DNA of 15,693 nt from Blautia sp. AF19-10LB (lineage in GTDB: Bacteria > Bacillota > Clostridia > Lachnospirales > Lachnospiraceae): the NCBI RefSeq assembly GCF_003461245.1, contig NZ_QTWS01000053.1:1-15693 (forward strand), read 5' to 3'. Below the pieces are notes generated by a model. The model did not search any database, was not told where the DNA came from, and was given only the letters and a program-made list of their open reading frames with translations. Below are positions 7,924-15,693 of the stretch, piece by piece. The first letter of the stretch is position 1, and every line of letters starts with the position of its first letter. The position numbers and the translations under genes are program-made.

Positions 7924-8196
7924 TAGAAGAAAGAAAGGCACATTTTGTGTAAGGTGAGGAAATGATTAATAGATAATTTGATTTAAGTAAGACACATATA
8001 GTTATTGAGCCTGTAGAGAATAGGTTTGTTTTGTGTACGCTTAAGTTGGATTATCGCAAGAGGCATTTCCTTTGTTTTCCTTTTGGAAAAGAAATAAGGG
8101 GCTATTTAGCGAGTCTATTTTTGCGTATGCAAAAAAGACTCGTTTTTGTGTGTTCAAAATAATAATTGGCTCAGACTTCGAAAAGGAGAAACTTTA
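7924..8196 (+). promoter_or_regulatory. Leader of the ABC-F gene with a very short upstream frame
   Basis: The leader holds a ribosome binding site AGGTGAGG near 7952-7959 followed by ATG ATT AAT AGA TAA (7962-7976), a four-codon frame (Met-Ile-Asn-Arg). Further on is a small hairpin TTTTCC/GGAAAA near 8078-8094, and then a strong terminator directly before the gene. In Firmicutes, antibiotic-resistance ABC-F genes are often controlled by ribosome-mediated attenuation, in which a drug-stalled ribosome on a short leader frame prevents terminator formation. That mechanism here is inferred; I did not find an obvious antiterminator pairing. Confidence 0.6.
8110..8147 (+). terminator. Attenuator-like terminator before the ABC-F gene
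   Basis: CGAGTCT (8110-8116) pairs with AGACTCG (8136-8142) and TTTTTGC (8118-8124) with GCAAAAA (8129-8135), giving 14 paired bases with one bulged A and a GTAT loop, followed by TTTTT. It ends 49 bases before the ATG at 8197. No gene ends nearby, so its role is probably conditional termination. Confidence 0.85.
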
Positions 8197-9741
8197 ATGT
8201 TGCAGATAAAAAAATTAAATTTAACACATAAAAAAGACCTGAGAATAATTCTTAATGATTTCAACCTTGTGCTAAATGATGGAGATAAGGCAGTTATTAT
8301 TGGAGAAGAGGGAAATGGGAAATCGACATTAATGAAGTGGATATACAATCCGTCGCTTGTAGAAAACTATATAGAAGCAGATGGGGAAAGGATAATGGGA
8401 CACGAACGTCTTGGTTATCTTCCGCAGGAGATGCTCGATGAAGATAAGGAAAAAACAATATACGAATATTTTTCTGAAGAGGAAATATTCTGGGAGAAAA
8501 CGCCTAAAGAATTGTCTGTTATTGCGGGAAAATTTGGAATGAAAAATGATTTTTTCTACAGTAACCAGACAATGGGTAGTCTTTCAGGAGGCGAAAAAGT
8601 CAAGACACAACTTATGAGGCTTTTCATTCGCGATGTTTCTGTGCTGTTGTTGGACGAACCTTCCAATGACATCGACATTGCGACGCTTACATTACTGGAA
8701 AAAATCATAAATGACTGGAAGCACATTGTGCTTTTTATTTCACACGATGAAACGCTGATAGAGCGTACTGCCAACATGGTGATACATATCGAGCAGATTA
8801 TACGAAAAACAAAGGCGAGATATACCGTGGCAAAGCTTCCCTATAGACGCTATGTGGAAGAACGGCTTCATAAATTTGAAATCCAAAAACAGCGGGCACT
8901 GAGTGACCGTAGGGAGAAAAAGATTCGCGATGAAAAATATCAAAGAGTTATGCAGAGTGTACAAGGTGCATTAAGAAGTTGTACCAGACAAGCACCGTCT
9001 GTTGCCAAAAACTTAAAGGACAAAATGCATACGGTTAAGGCAATGGAACGAAGATTTGAAAAAGAAGATGAAAATATGACTCAGATGCCGGAACAGGAAG
9101 AAGCAATCTTTGTCAAATTAGGGGATGAAAACTCACACATTCCCGCAGGAAAAACGGTCATAGAATATGAACTTTCAAAGCTTGTGACTCCGGATGGCAA
9201 AAGAATTTTAGCAGAAGGAATTCATTTAAAAATAAAAGGTTCAGAAAAAATCTGTATGATAGGAGCCAACGGGGCAGGAAAAACGACTCTTCTAAAAAAG
9301 ATAGCGGAAGAACTCCTAAATCGGAATGACATTAAAGCAGAATATATGCCTCAAACTTATGAAGACCTGCTGGATTTGGATGTTACACCGGTTGATTACC
9401 TTGATAAAACAGGAGATAAAGAAGAGCGTACAAGAATTAGAACATACCTTGGTTCACTTAAATACACACCAGATGAAATGGAGCATCCGATTCGGGAGTT
9501 ATCAGGCGGACAAAAGGCGAAAGTGCTTCTCTTGAGGATGAGCTTAAGTGGTGCAAATGTTCTTATTCTGGATGAACCGACAAGAAATTTTTCACCATTG
9601 TCCGGTCCGGTAATAAGAAAAATGCTCCGAGAATTTCCGGGGGCTGTCATTAGCATTTCTCACGATAGAAAGTATATTGAAGAGGTGTGCGATAAAATAT
9701 ATCAGCTAAATCCTAATGGATTACAGCTAATTGGTGATTGA
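8197..9741 (+). CDS. ABC-F ATPase, likely ribosomal protection (antibiotic resistance) protein
   Basis: A 514-residue protein with two ABC domains and no membrane segment, the ABC-F layout. Domain 1 has Walker A GEEGNGKST (36-44), signature LSGGEK (129-134) and Walker B VLLLDEP (149-155, Glu154). A charged linker follows at about 205-320. Domain 2 has Walker A GANGAGKTT (356-364), signature LSGGQ (435-439) and Walker B VLILDEP with Glu460. Resistance-type ABC-F proteins bind the ribosomal E site and displace drugs from the peptidyl transferase centre or exit tunnel. The ATG at 8197 has AAAAGGAG. The long linker, the attenuator leader and the neighbouring nucleotidyltransferase favour a resistance role, perhaps to lincosamides, streptogramin A or pleuromutilins. 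I cannot name a known subclass, and a housekeeping-like ABC-F is the alternative. Confidence 0.85.
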   Translation: MLQIKKLNLTHKKDLRIILNDFNLVLNDGDKAVIIGEEGNGKSTLMKWIYNPSLVENYIEADGERIMGHERLGYLPQEMLDEDKEKTIYEYFSEEEIFWEKTPKELSVIAGKFGMKNDFFYSNQTMGSLSGGEKVKTQLMRLFIRDVSVLLLDEPSNDIDIATLTLLEKIINDWKHIVLFISHDETLIERTANMVIHIEQIIRKTKARYTVAKLPYRRYVEERLHKFEIQKQRALSDRREKKIRDEKYQRVMQSVQGALRSCTRQAPSVAKNLKDKMHTVKAMERRFEKEDENMTQMPEQEEAIFVKLGDENSHIPAGKTVIEYELSKLVTPDGKRILAEGIHLKIKGSEKICMIGANGAGKTTLLKKIAEELLNRNDIKAEYMPQTYEDLLDLDVTPVDYLDKTGDKEERTRIRTYLGSLKYTPDEMEHPIRELSGGQKAKVLLLRMSLSGANVLILDEPTRNFSPLSGPVIRKMLREFPGAVISISHDRKYIEEVCDKIYQLNPNGLQLIGD

Positions 9742-9825: not shown

Positions 9826-10323
9826 ATGGTACGTACAGAAGATGCATGTGAAATTATAAAATATGCTTTGCAAAACGAAATTAAAGTATATTTAGATGGC
9901 GGATGGGGTGTTGATGCACTTCTTAAAAGAGAATCAAGAATACACAATGATATTGATTTGTTTGTTGAACTGAAACATTATCATGATTATATTTATGTGA
10001 TTAAGCAGCATGGATTTGAGGAAGTAAATACTGATTATACAACGGATGGTCATACTGTCTGGAAAGATGATAAACAAAGAATCATTGATTTACATTGTTT
10101 TGAATTTACAGATGACGGAATTGTTTATGAGGGAGATATATTTCCATCAAAAACTTTTTCCGGTATTGGAAAAGTTGGAGATATAACTGTTTCTTGTATT
10201 GAACCATTGAGTCAGGTAATGCTTCATTTGGGATATGAACACGATAAAAATGATGTGCATGATGTGATGCTGTTGTGTGAAACATTTCAAATAGCAATAC
10301 CAGATGAATATAAGGAAAAGTAA
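9826..10323 (+). CDS. Lincosamide nucleotidyltransferase-like enzyme (Lnu type)
   Basis: A 165-residue nucleotidyltransferase. LDGGWGVDALL at 23-33 carries the GG nucleotide-binding motif. The metal-binding acids are Asp42 and Asp44 in HNDIDLF, with Asp88 in IIDLH as the likely third. A C-terminal part with LHLGYEHDKNDVHDVMLL matches the short Lnu-type enzymes of 160-170 residues. These transfer AMP to lincomycin and clindamycin. I judge it closest to the Lnu(C)-like group from memory, but identity to a named allele needs a search. GGAGG lies 10 bases before the ATG. The gene is 84 bases after the ABC-F gene with no terminator between them, so both are probably one resistance unit. The pair is more AT-rich than the mobilization genes. 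Confidence 0.8.
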   Translation: MVRTEDACEIIKYALQNEIKVYLDGGWGVDALLKRESRIHNDIDLFVELKHYHDYIYVIKQHGFEEVNTDYTTDGHTVWKDDKQRIIDLHCFEFTDDGIVYEGDIFPSKTFSGIGKVGDITVSCIEPLSQVMLHLGYEHDKNDVHDVMLLCETFQIAIPDEYKEK

Positions 10324-10544: not shown

Positions 10545-11339
10545 TGTGTACAGTATTCATGTAATAATTATGCAAGAAACGGAAGAAGCGAGTGTAGTGC
10601 CCACAATATAGAAGCAAGGGATTTATTCAATGCCGTTCTTGCCGACATCAACTGTTTTGCGGATATGGCAGTGAATGATGAAAAGGCGGTCAGGGCCATA
10701 GAAAAGCGGCTCACGGAAACAGACCAGAGCAGGGCGAAAGCATTAGAGAAAGAACGTAAGAAGCTGAACAAACGCCTTGCGGAACTGGACAGGCTGTTTT
10801 CCTCTCTCTACGAGGATAAGGTCATGGAGCGTATTACCGAGCGGAATTTTGAGATGATGTCGGGGAAATACCAGAAAGAGCAGCTTGAAATTGAAGCAAG
10901 GCTGAAAGAGGTGACGGAAACTCTTAATGAAAGCTACGAGAAATCACGGGGAATCCGTGACTTCCTCGCCCTTATCCGAAATTATCAAGGCTTAAAAGAA
11001 CTGGATGCAACAGTTATAAACGCACTCATAGACAAGATACTTGTTTCGGAGCGTGAGAAGATGGCAGACGGAACAGTGAAGCAGGAAATCAAGATTTACT
11101 ATAAATTCATCGGCTTTGTCGATGAATTACATATCATACCTACAAAACGGTGGGCAGCAATGCCCGCTAAAAATTGTACGGTGTGCGGCGTTGAATATGT
11201 CCCGGGCTCTGGTGCATCAAGGTATTGTCCTGCTTGTGCCAAGAAGATACGGAGGGAGAAATCAAACGAGAGCAAACGCAGGAGCAGAGAACAGAAAAGG
11301 ATAGCATGTATGAACTGTCCGCAAAAAATGACCGACTGA
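10539..11339 (+). pseudogene. Large serine recombinase, 3' part
   Basis: This fragment continues the gene broken at 1817. It starts Val-Asp-Cys-Val-Gln-Tyr-Ser-Cys-Asn-Asn-Tyr, the second half of the zinc ribbon with Cys-x2-Tyr and a later Cys in RSEC. It then has the long coiled coil typical of large serine recombinases (AIEKRLTETDQSRAKALEKE and following) and a C-terminal zinc-finger-like CTVCGVEY...RYCPACAKK with a basic tail. It encodes 266 residues and has no start codon of its own at the junction. The stop TGA at 11337-11339 lies beyond the presumed element end at 11330-11331, so the final residues come from the target gene. Without excision of layer 3 no intact recombinase can be made. 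Confidence 0.9.
11330..11331. other. Presumed GA crossover, right end of the serine-recombinase element
   Basis: Left of this GA the sequence is recombinase C-terminus; right of it the helicase frame (CCG ACT GAC CTT GAA...) is family-like. The native helicase codon before Pro would end in GA if it were Arg (AGA or CGA), as in the usual Trp-Arg-Pro context. GA is the known crossover dinucleotide of TnpX/TndX-type enzymes. Other GA pairs at 11334 and 11338 are possible but less consistent. Confidence 0.5.
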
Positions 11340-12279: not shown

Positions 12280-12356
12280 TGCGGTTTGCATATTTGTATT
12301 GCTGATTTCTGGGAAGTATAATAGGTGTAGATTAGTAAATGTCGGAGGTGAAAGGT

Positions 12357-12686
12357 GTGCTTGATAATTTCAGATTTGAAACCTTTGTTGATGTGCATAG
12401 CAACATCTTTGCTGAATATCTAAGCTCCGTTATCGCAAAGCTGCCCAAAGAAAATCCAGAATACCATTTCATAGAGGAAAGGATAGAGAAACTCTACAAG
12501 GAGTATCCAAAAGTGATGGAGGCTCTGGATACGGAAAAGCCGAGCGATTTATCCGAGCAGGAGTGTAAGGCTTTGATAGAAGTTTTGGAGCTTCGGAATA
12601 GGCTCAGCGATATGCAGCAGGAAGCAATCTATTTCAGAGGGTGCTATGACAGCGTTGGATATCTCAAAAAGGCAGGAATTTTATAA
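12357..12686 (+). CDS. Small hypothetical ICE protein
   Basis: A 109-residue, mostly helical, acidic protein that I cannot name. It contains EYLSSVIAKLPKENPEYHFIEERIEKL, then ALDTEKPSDLSEQECKALIEVLELRNRL, and ends with a Tyr-Phe-Arg-Gly-Cys-Tyr-Asp segment. No membrane segment or metal motif is seen. I chose the GTG at 12357, because GGAGG at 12344-12348 lies exactly 8 bases before it. The in-frame ATG at 12339 precedes that site. A similar small gene usually follows the large helicase in Tn1549-like ICEs, so it is probably a resident gene rather than cargo. A terminator follows at 12696. Confidence 0.7.
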   Translation: MLDNFRFETFVDVHSNIFAEYLSSVIAKLPKENPEYHFIEERIEKLYKEYPKVMEALDTEKPSDLSEQECKALIEVLELRNRLSDMQQEAIYFRGCYDSVGYLKKAGIL

Positions 12687-12695
12687 CCAAGAACG

Positions 12696-12726
12696 GCGGC
12701 ATTGGCGTGGAGCTGATGCCGCTTTT
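12696..12726 (+). terminator. Terminator after the small ICE gene
   Basis: GCGGCAT (12696-12702) pairs with ATGCCGC (12716-12722), a perfect 7-base GC-rich stem, followed by TTTT. It separates the resident ICE genes from the TIR cassette. Confidence 0.75.
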
Positions 12727-12765
12727 ACATAGTTGTCACCGTTGGTAAAAATATACAAGATTTTG

Positions 12766-12774
12766 TGCTATAAT
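12766..12774 (+). promoter_or_regulatory. Extended -10 promoter of the TIR cassette
   Basis: TGCTATAAT is a perfect extended -10. The -35 position is weak, and TTGGTA at 12742-12747 is too far for normal spacing. Transcription would start near 12781, about 35 bases before the TIR gene. It shows the cassette can be expressed independently of ICE promoters. Confidence 0.7.
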
Positions 12775-12814
12775 AAAGATGCCTTATAAAGAAAATTTAG
12801 AGAAAGGTGATTAT

Positions 12815-13813
12815 ATGAATATTTTTATATCATATTCGCATATAGACAAGGAATTTGCCCTTAAACTGTCATCAGCGTTAGAAGCCGATGGCTACGATGT
12901 ATTTATTGACAACAAAATTCCCATTGGAAACAACATATACAAAGATATTGGCAAAGGAATTGCGAAGGCTGATGCGGTAATTGTTGTGATTTCAAAAAAT
13001 TCTAATGGAAGCCACTTTGTGGCGAATGAAACTATATCCATGTTGTCATTTTTAGACAAAGGGAGAATACCGTTAGTTATACCTGTAGTTTTAGGAAAGG
13101 ATACCCCTTTACCAGCAGACCTAAATAGGTTTAATTATATTGTTATTCCATATGAGAGTAAAGAGGACAATAGTAACGATTTGTCAATAGAATATGGTGT
13201 GCATGGACAAAAAGTAAGGTTAGACAAGTCATTAGAGAAAGATGCTATTGAAAAAATAAGACTAATTCTTGCGGCACATGATGAGAAAATAAAGCGGGGT
13301 GAAGAAGAACGAAGAAAATCCGAGGAAAAAGTAAAGACGGGCTTATCAAAGTACATAGAGGATGTTTTTACTAATTTGAAAGAAAGCGAAAAAAGAAATA
13401 AAAAATTTGCCTTCTGGCTATATTTAGTTTCGATTGTTTCTTTGATTGCTACGATTGTCATTGCCGTTATTTTTGTCGCAAATAGAGATTGGCAAACAGA
13501 AAATATTGGATATATGATAGCATATGGCGTTACTTGCTTGTTCATTATTATCATATTGATTTCATTATCTAAATTACTATTTACACTTGCTAAGTCCTTT
13601 ATGGTTGAAGCGATAAGATGCTCAGATAGGATACACGCTATTTCTTTTGGTAAATTCTTTTTGGATGCATATGGAGCAGAAGCATCTCGTGAAGAAGTAC
13701 TGAAAGCATTTGGTTCTTGGAATATAGATAATGGTAGTACATCGTTTAGAAATCAATCTGGGGAAGATTATGACCCTAAAATAGCTGAGATTATAAATAT
13801 TTTGAAAAAATAA
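12815..13813 (+). CDS. Membrane-anchored TIR-domain protein
   Basis: A 332-residue protein. Residues 1 to about 150 form a TIR domain: box 1 is IFISYS at 3-8, YDVFID at 27-32 is the next strand and loop, and DAVIVVISKNS at 53-63 is followed by HFVANE with Glu72 at the position of the catalytic glutamate of NAD-cleaving TIR domains. A charged helix (155-197) leads to two membrane helices at about 198-222 and 231-256, then a soluble tail of 75 residues (DAYGAEASREEVLKAFGSWN...). Many bacterial TIR domains consume NAD+ or make cyclic ADP-ribose signals in anti-phage defence. The ATG at 12815 has AAAGGTGA upstream; an ATG at 12779 lacks one. First gene of a four-gene unit. Enzyme activity is inferred. 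Confidence 0.85.
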   Translation: MNIFISYSHIDKEFALKLSSALEADGYDVFIDNKIPIGNNIYKDIGKGIAKADAVIVVISKNSNGSHFVANETISMLSFLDKGRIPLVIPVVLGKDTPLPADLNRFNYIVIPYESKEDNSNDLSIEYGVHGQKVRLDKSLEKDAIEKIRLILAAHDEKIKRGEEERRKSEEKVKTGLSKYIEDVFTNLKESEKRNKKFAFWLYLVSIVSLIATIVIAVIFVANRDWQTENIGYMIAYGVTCLFIIIILISLSKLLFTLAKSFMVEAIRCSDRIHAISFGKFFLDAYGAEASREEVLKAFGSWNIDNGSTSFRNQSGEDYDPKIAEIINILKK

Positions 13814-13859
13814 AACAAGTCCAGTGAAATAATAAGAAACATATTGTGGAGGTGATAAA

Positions 13860-14276
13860 TTGAATACGGCAATATTGGAAGTGCTTATATCAGTTATTTC
13901 ATCATTTTTAGGAGTAAACTTAAAAGACATAAAGGCAAGCCTAAACAAAGAGAACTTAAAGACATCAGAAGATAATGTAATAAGTGTAAGCATTGATTCT
14001 GTTAGCAAGAATCTGCAAGATTCTAAAGAAATTATTGAAAATGCACTACTTGAAATTGAGAAACAAAAAAAGTTGTTTGAACAGATGAAACAGGAAGCAG
14101 AAATTAGCCAACAAATAACAACCATGAATCAAGAACAAGTGAATGCCTTAAATACTCTTCTGGAAAACACATTAAATAAGCAGGAAAAAAAGACTTTTCC
14201 CAAAACACTTTTATGGAATCTATTTTTCTGTTTACTTAGTGCCATATTAGGATATATATTAGGAAAATTGTTGTAA
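13860..14276 (+). CDS. Small coiled-coil protein with a C-terminal membrane helix
   Basis: A 138-residue protein that I do not recognise. The N-terminus (AILEVLISVISSFLGV) is hydrophobic and may be amphipathic or membrane-associated. The middle is a long helical, coiled-coil-like stretch (KEIIENALLEIEKQKKLFEQ and onward). The C-terminus (LLWNLFFCLLSAILGYILGKLL) is a clear membrane helix, giving a tail-anchored layout. A TTG start at 13860 is supported by GGAGGTGAT at 13848-13856; no ATG fits as well. It lies 46 bases after the TIR gene with no terminator between them. It may oligomerise with the TIR protein in the membrane. No catalytic motif is visible, so a sensor, adaptor or pore role is only conjecture. 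Confidence 0.7.
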   Translation: MNTAILEVLISVISSFLGVNLKDIKASLNKENLKTSEDNVISVSIDSVSKNLQDSKEIIENALLEIEKQKKLFEQMKQEAEISQQITTMNQEQVNALNTLLENTLNKQEKKTFPKTLLWNLFFCLLSAILGYILGKLL

Positions 14277-14291
14277 GGAAAGGAGAGAAAA

Positions 14292-14879
14292 ATGGATAAC
14301 AGAATTACTATTATATTAGAATTGCTTTCTGCAGGCGTAATAGCATCCTTAGTTGCAGGTATCTTTTCCTTAATTATTGCATTTAAGAATAATAAGCGTT
14401 TAGTAGAGCTTGAAAAAAGCAAGCAAAAATTTACTGTAAATCAAGAACGATATAAAGGATTGAGAGAGGCTTATGCCGAATTGCTTAATGTATTACCAGA
14501 GGAAAAACTTTTAAGGCATATTATTATAAATTTACCTTCTCAAAAAAATTTTCAAGAAAATGGACTTTCAGAAGCCTATGAAGCAGCAGATATGAATATG
14601 AAAATTATGTATTCACATTTTCAAAAGCATGGTTATTTGCTTTCGGATGATGAACAGAAAGAGATTATTAAATTGATTGATGTGATTGACACTATTACAA
14701 AAAGTATTATTGATATTAGTTTGGGCTTGCAAGTGTATGATGTTGGGAATGAAGAAAATGAAGATGCTTCGGTAGATAAAGTTCACAAAAAAATTTTGGA
14801 AAGAATATTAAAAGTAACCGAGTTTGAAGAAACATATTACAATTTATTTAAAAACAATTTGAGTAAGCTTTCAAAATAA
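14292..14879 (+). CDS. Membrane-anchored helical protein, paralogue A of the cassette
   Basis: A 195-residue protein with one N-terminal membrane helix (residues about 7-31, LELLSAGVIASLVAGIFSLIIAF). It is followed by a basic turn (KNNKRLVELEKSKQKF) and a long helical cytosolic part with a conserved-looking Tyr-rich segment (NQERYKGLREAYAELLNVL). The lack of metal or nucleotide motifs gives no clue to an enzyme. Its layout and the segment after the membrane helix resemble the next gene (hydrophobic helix, then NN-x-RL-x2-[LI]EK-x-KQ, then a YxxLxE[AL]xxxLL-like helix), so the two are probably diverged paralogues. AAAGGAGAG precedes the ATG, which lies 15 bases after the previous stop. Function unknown; perhaps a membrane partner of the TIR protein. 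Confidence 0.75.
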   Translation: MDNRITIILELLSAGVIASLVAGIFSLIIAFKNNKRLVELEKSKQKFTVNQERYKGLREAYAELLNVLPEEKLLRHIIINLPSQKNFQENGLSEAYEAADMNMKIMYSHFQKHGYLLSDDEQKEIIKLIDVIDTITKSIIDISLGLQVYDVGNEENEDASVDKVHKKILERILKVTEFEETYYNLFKNNLSKLSK

Positions 14880-14914
14880 AAAACACAGATTTTAAGTTGC
14901 AAGGAGAAGCAATA

Positions 14915-15433
14915 ATGGAGTTAAATGAATTTTTTACTACGGTTATTCTTACAGCAGCAGTATTTGCTGCACTTGTTACATCAATAGCCAATATAATTAT
15001 TTCGCTGATGAATAATTGGCGACTAAAAAAAATAGAAAAACAAAAGCAAATGAATGAAATTGATAAGTATAGATATAGTAGACTATATGAATTAATATTG
15101 AATTGGCATAAATATGATTCTGCCCCAAGAGGGGATACTGCCGAAGAAATAGCTTTTTATAGATTGCTTAATTTGTTTATGGACGATTCTGGGCGTTATG
15201 AAATAGCAAAACCTTTGTTAGACAAATGCTATATTGAAGAATTAGAGGTAAAAAAAACAGAAGGCGAAAAATTACTGAATGACTTAGTTGGAGCTGAATT
15301 ACCAGATGGAACACACTCAGAGGAGTTTCCTGCCATTAAACAAAGGTATTTTGACATTGCAAAAGAGTTTTCAAAAATGTTGAAAACGGTAATCAACTGT
15401 CAACTTGAGGAGTTATTATGTAAGAGCAATTAA
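14915..15433 (+). CDS. Membrane-anchored helical protein, paralogue B of the cassette
   Basis: A 172-residue protein with an N-terminal membrane helix (about 9-31, VILTAAVFAALVTSIANIIIS). NNWRLKKIEKQKQ and then RYSRLYELILNWHKY mirror the same region of the preceding gene. The remaining helical part contains RGDTAEEIAFYRLLNLFMDDSGRYEIA, which recalls a small helical bundle, and no catalytic motif is evident. I chose the ATG at 14915, because AAGGAG (14901-14905) lies 9 bases upstream; a TTG at 14897 lies before it. The gene starts 35 bases after its neighbour and is followed by the cassette terminator, so it is the last member of the unit. Role unknown; sensing phage or membrane damage is conjecture. 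Confidence 0.75.
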   Translation: MELNEFFTTVILTAAVFAALVTSIANIIISLMNNWRLKKIEKQKQMNEIDKYRYSRLYELILNWHKYDSAPRGDTAEEIAFYRLLNLFMDDSGRYEIAKPLLDKCYIEELEVKKTEGEKLLNDLVGAELPDGTHSEEFPAIKQRYFDIAKEFSKMLKTVINCQLEELLCKSN

Positions 15434-15463
15434 GACAAATTTGAAAAAGATACTTATTTACAT

Positions 15464-15504
15464 AGCCGAGAGGTTTTCTTAATGGAAAATCCCTCGGCTT
15501 TTTC
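15464..15504 (+). terminator. Terminator closing the TIR cassette
   Basis: AGCCGAG (15464-15470) pairs with CTCGGCT (15493-15499) and the stem extends inward to TTTTC/GAAAA with one mismatch and one wobble pair. TTTTT follows. It ends 7 bases before the toprim ribosome binding site, so the toprim gene cannot simply be read from the cassette promoter. Confidence 0.8.
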
Positions 15505-15529: not shown

Positions 15530-15640
15530 ATGAGAAGTAACCGACCCTATGTGCAGATTGATCCTTCCGTGATTGAGCAGGCACGGCAGATGGACTTGCT
15601 TTCCTACTTGCAGAGGTATGAGCCGAGCACCCTAATATAA
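15530..15640 (+). pseudogene. Toprim/DUF3991-like primase gene, 5' end only
   Basis: AGGAGGTGA at 15511-15519 precedes an ATG at 15530. The frame reads RPYVQIDPSVIEQARQMDLLSYLQRYEPS, the N-terminus I know from the toprim/DUF3991 (DNA-primase-like) proteins of Tn1549-type ICEs, which normally exceed 300 residues. After Ser33 it reads Thr-Leu-Ile and stops at 15638-15640. The following bases are AT-rich and unlike the family, which suggests that another insertion or deletion joint lies near 15627-15635. The full protein probably acts in DNA synthesis during transfer. What follows to the window end is too short to identify. Confidence 0.75.
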
Positions 15641-15693
15641 TGGTATCGTAATTTAAGACACTTCAAGAGACATTTCTTAATGAATCTGATATA

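Follow-up and report, generated by a model that had tools for sequence, protein, structure and literature searches.

It is customary to regard TIR enzymes, membrane effectors and EAD adaptors as distinct components. The three-gene TIR and transmembrane system of the P2-like phage AC1 is, according to the available part of the report, active against lambda, LF82_P8 and P2 (PMC9122126). TIR genes with SLATT neighbours have been described in Firmicute phages, where the accessible text presents the two-TM protein as a predicted membrane effector (PMC9503650). SpbK, as far as the available sections of its report go, is a tested precedent for ICE-borne TIR defence (PMC8880864), and PdpSau is portrayed in the excerpt at hand as a prophage protein that is anchored in the membrane and brings about abortive infection together with membrane effects (PMC10127798).

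The locus compared with these systems here lies in a stretch of 15,693 nucleotides from Blautia sp. AF19-10LB, which was analysed as a whole and is referred to as the window. Loci compared with it bear L numbers.

Layout of the Cassette

Four ORFs, named A, B, C and D, lie on one strand; the short gaps given in the preliminary description were confirmed as 46, 15 and 35 bases.

12766..12774, + strand: extended -10 promoter element TGnTATAAT, read from the sequence, with TATAAT at 12769 and without a canonical -35
12815..13813, + strand: gene A, 332 aa, with TIR, coiled stalk, 2TM hairpin and conserved C-terminal domain (CTD)
13860..14276, + strand: gene B, 138 aa, TTG start, coiled middle, hydrophobic at both ends (hydropathy)
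14292..14879, + strand: gene C, 195 aa, N-terminal membrane helix and helical cytosolic domain
14915..15433, + strand: gene D, 172 aa, N-terminal membrane module and a helical domain unlike that of C; alternative TTG start at 14897

The previously noted AT-richness of the block is borne out by a GC content of 0.31, versus 0.44–0.45 for the ICE and the other stretches compared, except for the resistance-gene region (0.365). The extended -10 element, also noted before, is present by reading; it is absent from the list of the promoter scan, the total of which was not above chance (18 found versus 14.0 ± 4.2 in shuffles). Values of dN/dS against L010 were 0.146 for A, 0.057 for B and 0.21 for C, and D gave 0.174 against L113; the ORFs are therefore real genes under purifying selection. 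Rfam at gathering scores gave no match in the window.

Gene A and the Hairpin-CTD Family

The start of A is most likely 12815, after an AGAAAGG-type ribosome site (judged by eye), and the length of 332 aa is found in 11 of the 20 closest relatives. Its parts are as follows.

12815..13150, + strand: TIR domain, residues 1–112, with Glu72 at the catalytic position
13424..13591, + strand: two-helix membrane hairpin, TM1 at residues 204–222 and TM2 at 241–259 (hydropathy; AF2 model)
13589..13780, + strand: CTD, residues 259–322 (conservation in the family alignment)

The match to Pfam TIR_2 (E 2.3e-22) and the hydropathy agree with the earlier reading of A as a TIR protein with two membrane helices. 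E72 is aligned with the conserved Glu of the BtTir and Roq1 TIRs, which we take to be the catalytic residue, and 100 of the 104 TIR-bearing relatives have it too. With a Glu at this position, A may cleave NAD+. That it is a membrane-assembled TIR effector, as had been proposed, is plausible from the AF2 model, which is of middling confidence (pTM 0.52; pLDDT below 50 in the last 29 residues). The VIA fold comparison of A covers residues 1–161.

What defines A is the hairpin-CTD rather than the TIR domain, a point overlooked in the preliminary description. TIR is present in only 20 of the 26 family members, and the remaining six bear EAD11, MgtE_N-like, coiled or unrecognised fronts; the TIR and non-TIR forms nevertheless align over the hairpin-CTD (hhalign E 2.6e-47, 162 columns). 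The member at L025 carries EAD11 twice and is adjoined by STAND-TPR and trypsin genes, while the front of the L031 member is MgtE_N-like. For the E. coli prophage gene at L030, no Pfam family among those listed passed its cut-off and PADLOC gave none. Eight CTD residues (E265, D271, R272, H274, A275, G279, W302 and N303) are invariant in all 26 diverse members. Conservation in A is 0.80 for the CTD versus 0.56 for the TIR, and moderate for the membrane helices (0.44 and 0.49). By dN/dS, the TIR (0.058) and the CTD (0.050) are under the strongest constraint, compared with 0.26 for the TM part and 0.32 for the linker.

These data bear on a simpler explanation, in which A would be a membrane-tethered TIR NADase that kills through loss of NAD+, and the hairpin-CTD would only anchor the enzyme, oligomerise it or sense a cue. 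The retained Glu fits such an enzyme equally well. However, six of the 26 members dispense with TIR and keep the CTD, and the CTD is the more conserved of the two; we consider this explanation unlikely, though it is the strongest of the alternatives.

Full-length A was not found in 99 relatives or in 392 genomes of the order, with at most five candidates scored per genome in the latter; the matches listed in both sets were to the TIR or partial, and none reached beyond profile position 247 of 318. A had no match in phage records or viral contigs, and phage records gave none for the prophage protein of Klebsiella either. E. coli prophages have the module too, with a DNA match in 154 of 5,426 genomes, in a single gene whose front is diversified, so that it can be tested directly with laboratory E. 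coli strains and phages. In all five E. coli prophage loci that were opened, the gene lies between the CI repressor and the integrase. The variants compared are 30% identical in the front and 76% in the CTD, and the gene has no recognised enzyme domain. No paper was recognised as describing the hairpin-CTD module, which is a weak negative, as subscription papers were mostly outside the search.

Among the six non-TIR members, P0122 could be an assembly chimera or a deletion. Near-identical A–D pieces fused to other sequence were seen in P0063, P0082, P0092, P0124, P0126, P0219, P0271, P0307 and P0308; these were treated as assembly chimeras or deletions and were not used.

Genes B, C and D

The N-terminal membrane modules of C and D are homologous, and hydropathy gives one N-terminal helix in each. 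The membrane helix once ascribed to every small protein thus holds for C and D, whereas B is hydrophobic at both ends. No Pfam, NCBIfam or PADLOC family was found above cut-off for B, C or D.

Relatives of C stand beside A at L009, L010 and L011; B has relatives at L009 (frame broken) and L010 and is missing at L011, and D is missing at L010 and L011. The genes are thus not unlinked throughout, as the A-B-C and A-C arrangements recur. D occurs without A–C at L113, among transfer-type genes of another ICE, and the L066 phage contig holds a C relative without A, near an HTH gene. The dedicated four-gene system that had been proposed does not survive this comparison: the four genes are not a fixed unit, and D is a separable rider.

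In 297 genomes, C was found only in G446 itself and as two weak partial matches, G495 and G470, the regions of which hold no A-like gene (by eye). In 397 genomes, two partial matches to C were found (in G1041 it was D's N-terminal module that matched), and D was found in one genome. C had no match in plasmids or phages, and D none in viral contigs. The fold of C had no PDB match at E ≤ 0.001, the best matches being generic helical bundles; against viral models the best match was a Siphoviridae protein (E 0.042). The small membrane protein at L023 was ruled out as a relative of C (hhalign probability 8).

One might suppose a Thoeris-like relay, in which the TIR would make a nucleotide signal and B, C or D, as effectors of their own, would respond to it; such a relay has been put forward for TIR with SLATT or transmembrane proteins. 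The gene order does resemble that of the AC1 TIR and transmembrane system, as described in the available part of PMC9122126, and the TIR-SLATT neighbours of Firmicute phages are similar according to the accessible text of PMC9503650. However, A itself unites hairpin and TIR in one chain, no family passed its cut-off for the would-be effectors, and B, C and D are all missing from 20 of the 23 A-family loci, which makes this relay highly improbable.

Another possibility is that the family and the C and D proteins are exclusion factors, which would stop phage or conjugative DNA from entering at the membrane and would not kill. The position between CI and integrase in E. coli, the occurrence of D alone amid transfer-type genes and the C relative in a phage contig would all suit such a role. 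A catalytic-looking TIR or an EAD11 is not needed for it, and since C and D stand without a TIR partner at L066 and L113, they may do something else. Exclusion seems improbable.

The ICE Slot and Its Cargo

The cassette sits between two ICE genes, in a slot with the following features.

12339..12686, + strand: 5' slot border, DUF6664 gene of the ICE backbone (PF20369, E 4.8e-56)
12726..12732, + strand: slot-edge direct repeat TACATAG, 5' copy
15459..15465, + strand: slot-edge direct repeat TACATAG, 3' copy
15464..15499, + strand: intrinsic terminator hairpin and T-run, belonging to the ICE slot
15530..15640, + strand: 3' slot border, first part of the primase-like gene of the ICE; the frame stops after 36 codons within the window

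The terminator, missed by a simple scan, folds at -20.8 kcal/mol (z -5.3; none of 200 shuffles as good). The hairpin claimed earlier is thus real, but it is not the cassette's own: of the 13 slots compared, with unrelated cargo, 12 have it at their 3' edge, and it hence belongs to the ICE.

The slot is an ICE hotspot. Its cargo elsewhere is largely different and often immunity-like, including a caspase, a CAP12-type TIR with an ATPase, a HEPN and a kinase, and otherwise similar ICE slots differ in what they carry. No family was matched by the cargo proteins at L099, L100, L107 and L108, and an empty form of the slot was found in none of 116 genomes and in no viral contig. Conflict genes (Gabija, CBASS, CRISPR and others) are near 10 of 23 family loci, a raw count without a control set, and the other 13 have no such neighbour. 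Together, the slot comparison and the family neighbours support, at the level of sequence, the earlier suggestion of putative defence-type cargo in an ICE.

Alternatively, the genes may serve the element itself, for instance in its transfer, maintenance or regulation. The place of D in the transfer-type cluster at L113 would agree with this, as would the several slot cargo proteins without a conflict family. The TIR, the prophage slot and the presence of Gabija, CBASS and CRISPR near family loci speak against it, and so does the variation of cargo between otherwise similar slots; a role outside defence is quite improbable.

Proposed Mode of Action

The explanation we prefer, to which we give a little less than an even chance, is that the ICE carries the block as exchangeable cargo with an anti-phage or anti-element function, in which the membrane executor common to the family would be the hairpin-CTD, with the TIR as a trigger open to exchange. 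At its core would be gene A, encoding a membrane effector from a modular family, built of a variable N-terminal trigger (in this case a TIR with Glu at the catalytic position), a long coiled stalk, the two-helix membrane hairpin and a constant cytosolic CTD. A cue from infection or a foreign element would activate or cluster the TIR, which would then assemble, cleave NAD+ or do both; the hairpin-CTD would subsequently oligomerise in the membrane, and the cell or the invader would be stopped. C, and usually B too, may be membrane partners that keep A inactive or relay the cue, with D as a separable rider whose anchor is of the same family as that of C.

This explanation is preferred because the hairpin-CTD, with its eight CTD residues, is constant while TIR is not, because the fronts vary (EAD11, MgtE_N-like and the diversified E. 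coli prophage fronts), and because constraint within A is strongest on TIR and CTD. The slot cargo elsewhere and the 10 loci with conflict neighbours also argue for it, together with the precedent of SpbK, as given in the available portion of PMC8880864. Against it, the membrane helices are only moderately conserved, which would not be an obvious expectation for a pore, the retained Glu would suit a tethered NADase as well, and 13 loci have no conflict neighbour in a count that lacks a control set. The cargo without family match, the lack of an empty slot form and the middling model with its low-confidence last 29 residues weigh in the same direction.

More broadly, and tentatively, stalk-2TM-CTD may be an unnamed, widespread immunity executor, with the CTD (E..DR.HA...G...WN) as a ligand- or partner-gated switch and with TIR, EAD11, MgtE_N-like domains and diversifying coils as plug-in triggers; the TIR form would then combine signal maker and membrane effector in one polypeptide. 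One conserved membrane module, unnamed in the libraries searched, joins TIR, EAD and other fronts in turn, and for more immunity genes of gut Clostridia, the slot bounded by the DUF6664 and primase-like genes is a ready place to search.

Comparison with Known Systems

As stated in the preliminary description, the locus is not recognised as a named system: no named-system profile passed its cut-off, and membership in Thoeris, CBASS/Pycsar and SLATT was rejected on profile tests. A resembles Thoeris in having a TIR domain in a defence-like setting, but the ThcB4 profile NF058526 scores 25.4 bits (cut-off 220), and ThsB_TIR PF08937 scores 19.9 (cut-off 21.2); the latter was found at E ≤ 0.1 in seven of 26 family members (best 3.4e-5). 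The Thoeris partner effector (SIR2, TM-macro or protease), already reported as absent, was not recognised among B, C and D by Pfam, PADLOC or NCBIfam. For CBASS/Pycsar, no nucleotide cyclase gene was found among A–D, and the CAP12-PCTIR_TIR profile scores 16.8 bits on A (cut-off 24.7). Like SLATT proteins, A has two TM helices by hydropathy and model; however, SLATT_1 reaches 14.2 bits (cut-off 41) and DUF4231 11.3 (cut-off 24.7), and the hairpin-CTD compared with three SLATT_1 proteins gave an hhalign probability of 1. The other SLATT families were covered via the Pfam scan of A and the 26 members, among 25 of 50 families listed.

The AC1 system likewise combines TIR and membrane proteins in a cargo hotspot of a mobile element, but by its description in the available text these are separate products (PMC9122126), whereas A is one chain with a CTD. 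The TIR and SLATT neighbours of Firmicute phages couple TIR to a two-TM protein, as A does, in the part of PMC9503650 at hand. SpbK of ICEBs1 is also a TIR protein and anti-phage ICE cargo; it acts as a single gene, and the available portions of its descriptions mention no membrane hairpin (PMC8880864, PMC12847820). PdpSau is membrane-anchored and prophage-borne, and the hairpin-CTD gene is found in prophages too, but the accessible description gives PdpSau one N-terminal helix and an OB-like domain (PMC10127798). Finally, phrog_2628, a prophage protein of unknown function adjoining CI, has no TIR and a coiled, diversified front, but it is homologous to residues 157–331 of A (E 2.9e-14) and has the motif in common with it.

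Gene A and Its Cassette

The cassette consists of four genes whose GC content (0.31) lies well below the 0.44–0.45 of the compared ICE stretches.

Features of the cassette
12766-12774, + strand: extended -10, upstream of four co-directional genes, A to D
12815-13813, + strand: gene A, 332 aa
13860-14276, + strand: gene B, 138 aa, TTG start
14292-14879, + strand: gene C, 195 aa
14915-15433, + strand: gene D, 172 aa

An ATG at 12779 is less likely to be the start of A than position 12815, since a ribosome site was seen by eye ahead of the latter and a length of 332 aa is shared by 11 of the 20 closest relatives among the matches listed. With locus L010 as the comparison, dN/dS values were 0.146 (A), 0.057 (B) and 0.21 (C); for D, compared with locus L113, it was 0.174.

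In a Pfam scan of A, TIR families alone exceeded the cut-off (TIR_2, E 2.3e-22). The AF2 model (mean pLDDT 75.7, pTM 0.52, final 29 residues below 50) shows the TIR, a helix (138-222) running into the first membrane segment and a helix (231-286) that returns and contains the second. Among 29 relatives, mean identity to A was 0.80 in the C-terminal domain (CTD) and 0.56 in the TIR; the membrane stretches had values of 0.44 and 0.49, the linker 0.35. By dN/dS the TIR of A is constrained as strongly as the CTD. E72 aligns with the conserved, catalytic-position Glu of BtTir and Roq1. It is retained in 100 of 104 TIR-bearing relatives among the matches listed (120 of 245, with 108 relatives of at least 290 aa, of which these 104 carry a TIR).

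One Membrane Half, Several Fronts

The comparison was widened to 26 proteins from Clostridia, Olsenella, Bacteroidetes, Proteobacteria, Pyxidicoccus and plasmids. Eight residues (E265, D271, R272, H274, A275, G279, W302 and N303) are all present in 26/26, while a TIR is found in 20, both with a TIR profile built from A1 and with Pfam TIR_2. In the remaining six the front is EAD11 twice (L025), an MgtE_N-like domain (L031) or, in the prophage member L030, coiled; three fronts have no family match (L026, L027 and P0122). The stalk, hairpin and CTD of the 20 TIR forms align with those of L025, L030 and L031 over 162 columns (hhalign E 2.6e-47). A is thus one member of a family whose defining part is the membrane half and whose fronts are interchangeable.

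The prophage form, L030, corresponds to phrog_2628 (E 7.1e-224) and was matched in 154 of 5,426 E. coli genomes, with 116 records at 95–99% identity and 38 at 60–80%. Five loci (L078, L115–L118) were opened, one close to L030 and four diverged, and in all five the gene is flanked by those for the CI repressor and the integrase and shares their strand. Among them, the first 150 residues had a mean pairwise identity of 0.30, the stalk and membrane stretch 0.56 and the CTD 0.76; for CI it was 0.57 and for the integrase 0.97. Fronts that vary and a membrane half that does not, in a lysogeny region, form the pattern expected of a sensor-plus-executor, or of an exclusion factor.

Partners of Gene A

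A, B and C occur together in L010, where they occupy the ICE slot that they fill in the window, and in L009 beside Gabija, where the B frame is broken and the contig ends within C; L011 carries A and C. In the remaining 17 genome loci and three plasmid loci of the A family, B, C and D were not found at E 0.01. D is missing from L010 and L011, where D-profile matches were rejected as D genes, being the N-terminal module of C that is common to C and D. This membrane module is 43% identical between C and D over 49 residues (hhalign probability 97.8, 53 columns), the remainder being unlike. D stands by itself in the ICE of L113 (9475-10014, reverse complement), where 19 kb of sequence contains neither A nor B nor C. 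By eye, its neighbours there are a coupling-protein-like and a small pilin-like gene in a transfer-type cluster, and it could possibly be an entry-exclusion factor. C is predicted to be all-helical (pLDDT 87.3), and a C relative without A lies in the IMG/VR contig L066 near an HTH-like gene on the opposite strand. Taken together, the distribution of A-B-C, A-C and solitary D best supports a putative core of A with C, with B frequent and D a separable rider.

Member sequences number 404 (A), 352 (C) and 313 (D) in the largest clusters, which shows that close copies are common and is no evidence of linkage. Near-identical A-D pieces fused with one another or with other genes were also seen in public metagenome assemblies (P0063, P0082, P0092, P0124, P0126, P0219, P0271, P0307 and P0308). 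These are probably chimeras; deletions by recombination are possible.

The ICE Cargo Slot

PF20369 (DUF6664) was found at 17 places in 13 of 195 related genomes, and 11 of these places were compared together with L010. In L099–L109, a Clostridia ICE family carries cargo in the interval between the DUF6664 and primase-like genes, a hotspot whose 3' edge bears a conserved terminator. The cargo largely differs among the compared slots; by eye, overlap was seen between the window and L010 (A-B-C) and between L100 and L109 (similar kinase-like genes). Cargo GC is 0.30–0.33 in 10/12 stretches against 0.39–0.50 in the flanks, the exceptions being L101 (0.41), which has an IS-like pair, and L109 (0.40), whose cargo end is undefined. 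A scan of ten cargo proteins, taken from eight loci, gave no family match for those of L099, L100, L107 and L108.

Slot cargo with matches
L102: caspase
L103: CAP12-type TIR and ORC-CDC6-like ATPase
L104: HEPN barely above the cut-off; TPR-like protein under the cut-off
L105: PD-T4-6-like kinase in two overlapping frames

The terminator with its TACATAG edge is present in 12 of 13 slots, window included (L109 is the exception), with one base changed in L010 and small changes in L101; TACATAG stands at the 5' edge in 7/13. The window's cargo therefore spans about 12733-15458, with the terminator belonging to the ICE backbone. L105, L107 and L108 have a direct repeat of 14–15 bases at both slot edges, and L104 has an extra small gene between terminator and primase. 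The primase gene was not found in the sequence examined of the L103 and L109 slots, and no empty slot was found in 116 genomes or in viral contigs.

The first slot genes of L010 (1180-2085) and L108 (686-1354) share, by eye, a C-terminal stretch HNDxWxC...C...K..I...L..L; no family was found for the L010 protein. In the window, the primase-like frame (within 15530-15693) stops after 36 codons, against about 330 aa in other copies, so a further junction or break lies near 15640. Elsewhere in the window, in a reading made largely by eye, 753-1823 and 10665-11336 look like the front and back (DUF4368) of one large serine recombinase gene. They enclose a tyrosine integrase-like gene, an ABC-F gene (8146-9741) and, at 9826-10323, a nucleotidyltransferase gene that resembles Lnu but stays under the Lnu cut-offs.

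Neighbourhoods of Family Members

One genome per species (84,980 species) was scanned with two CTD peptide patterns, a search that misses members lacking them. The 20 loci obtained, of which L022, L024 and L028 are partial or broken copies, and three plasmid loci make up the 23 considered. Genes flanking all family matches were read and a chosen subset was profile-scanned. A conflict gene or array lies within about 5 kb in 10/23 loci, an uncontrolled count that is at most suggestive.

Conflict neighbours
L009: Gabija (GajA E 1.9e-267, GajB E 6.7e-250)
L011: P-loop Mrr protein (Mrr_cat E 2.6e-30; NACHT under the cut-off)
L012, 24-1290: CRISPR array, 61-base period, in an Olsenella MAG; a TIR-hairpin-CTD gene follows about 0.6 kb downstream
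L014: PDC-S19
L015, L016: a second TIR gene in each
L022: ABC-3C CTD9
L025: STAND-like TPR protein and trypsin
L029: CBASS cyclase (E 5.9e-103) and phospholipase (E 3.9e-141)
L031: GmrSD

No conflict neighbour was found among the genes scanned or read in the other 13 (L010, L013, L017–L021, L023, L024, L026–L028 and L030); L023 gave a weak ATPase match and, by eye only, an L024 gene has a TIR-like stretch.

Proposed Mechanism and Known Systems

Since the prophage form has no recognised enzyme domain and neighbours CI and integrase, the hairpin-CTD probably executes or blocks on its own. The EAD11 form has a STAND-like gene and a trypsin gene beside it; PMC8195603 describes fusions of cognate EADs to effectors in systems of this type. 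Together with a TIR as constrained as the CTD, these forms tentatively favour a model, just short of an even chance, in which the variable front would act as trigger and the hairpin-CTD as membrane executor. The nearest rival, in which A is a tethered NADase, fits the retained E72 and seems less likely; against it, six of the 26 family members keep the CTD without a TIR.

Membership of the cassette in Thoeris and of A in SLATT both fail. No recognised description of a hairpin-CTD with exchangeable fronts was found in the literature searched. The general kind, TIR proteins with membrane partners or on mobile elements, is already known: a P2-like phage carries the AC1 system (PMC9122126), TIR and SLATT genes are neighbours in phages of Firmicutes (PMC9503650), and ICEBs1 carries SpbK (PMC8880864, PMC12847820).
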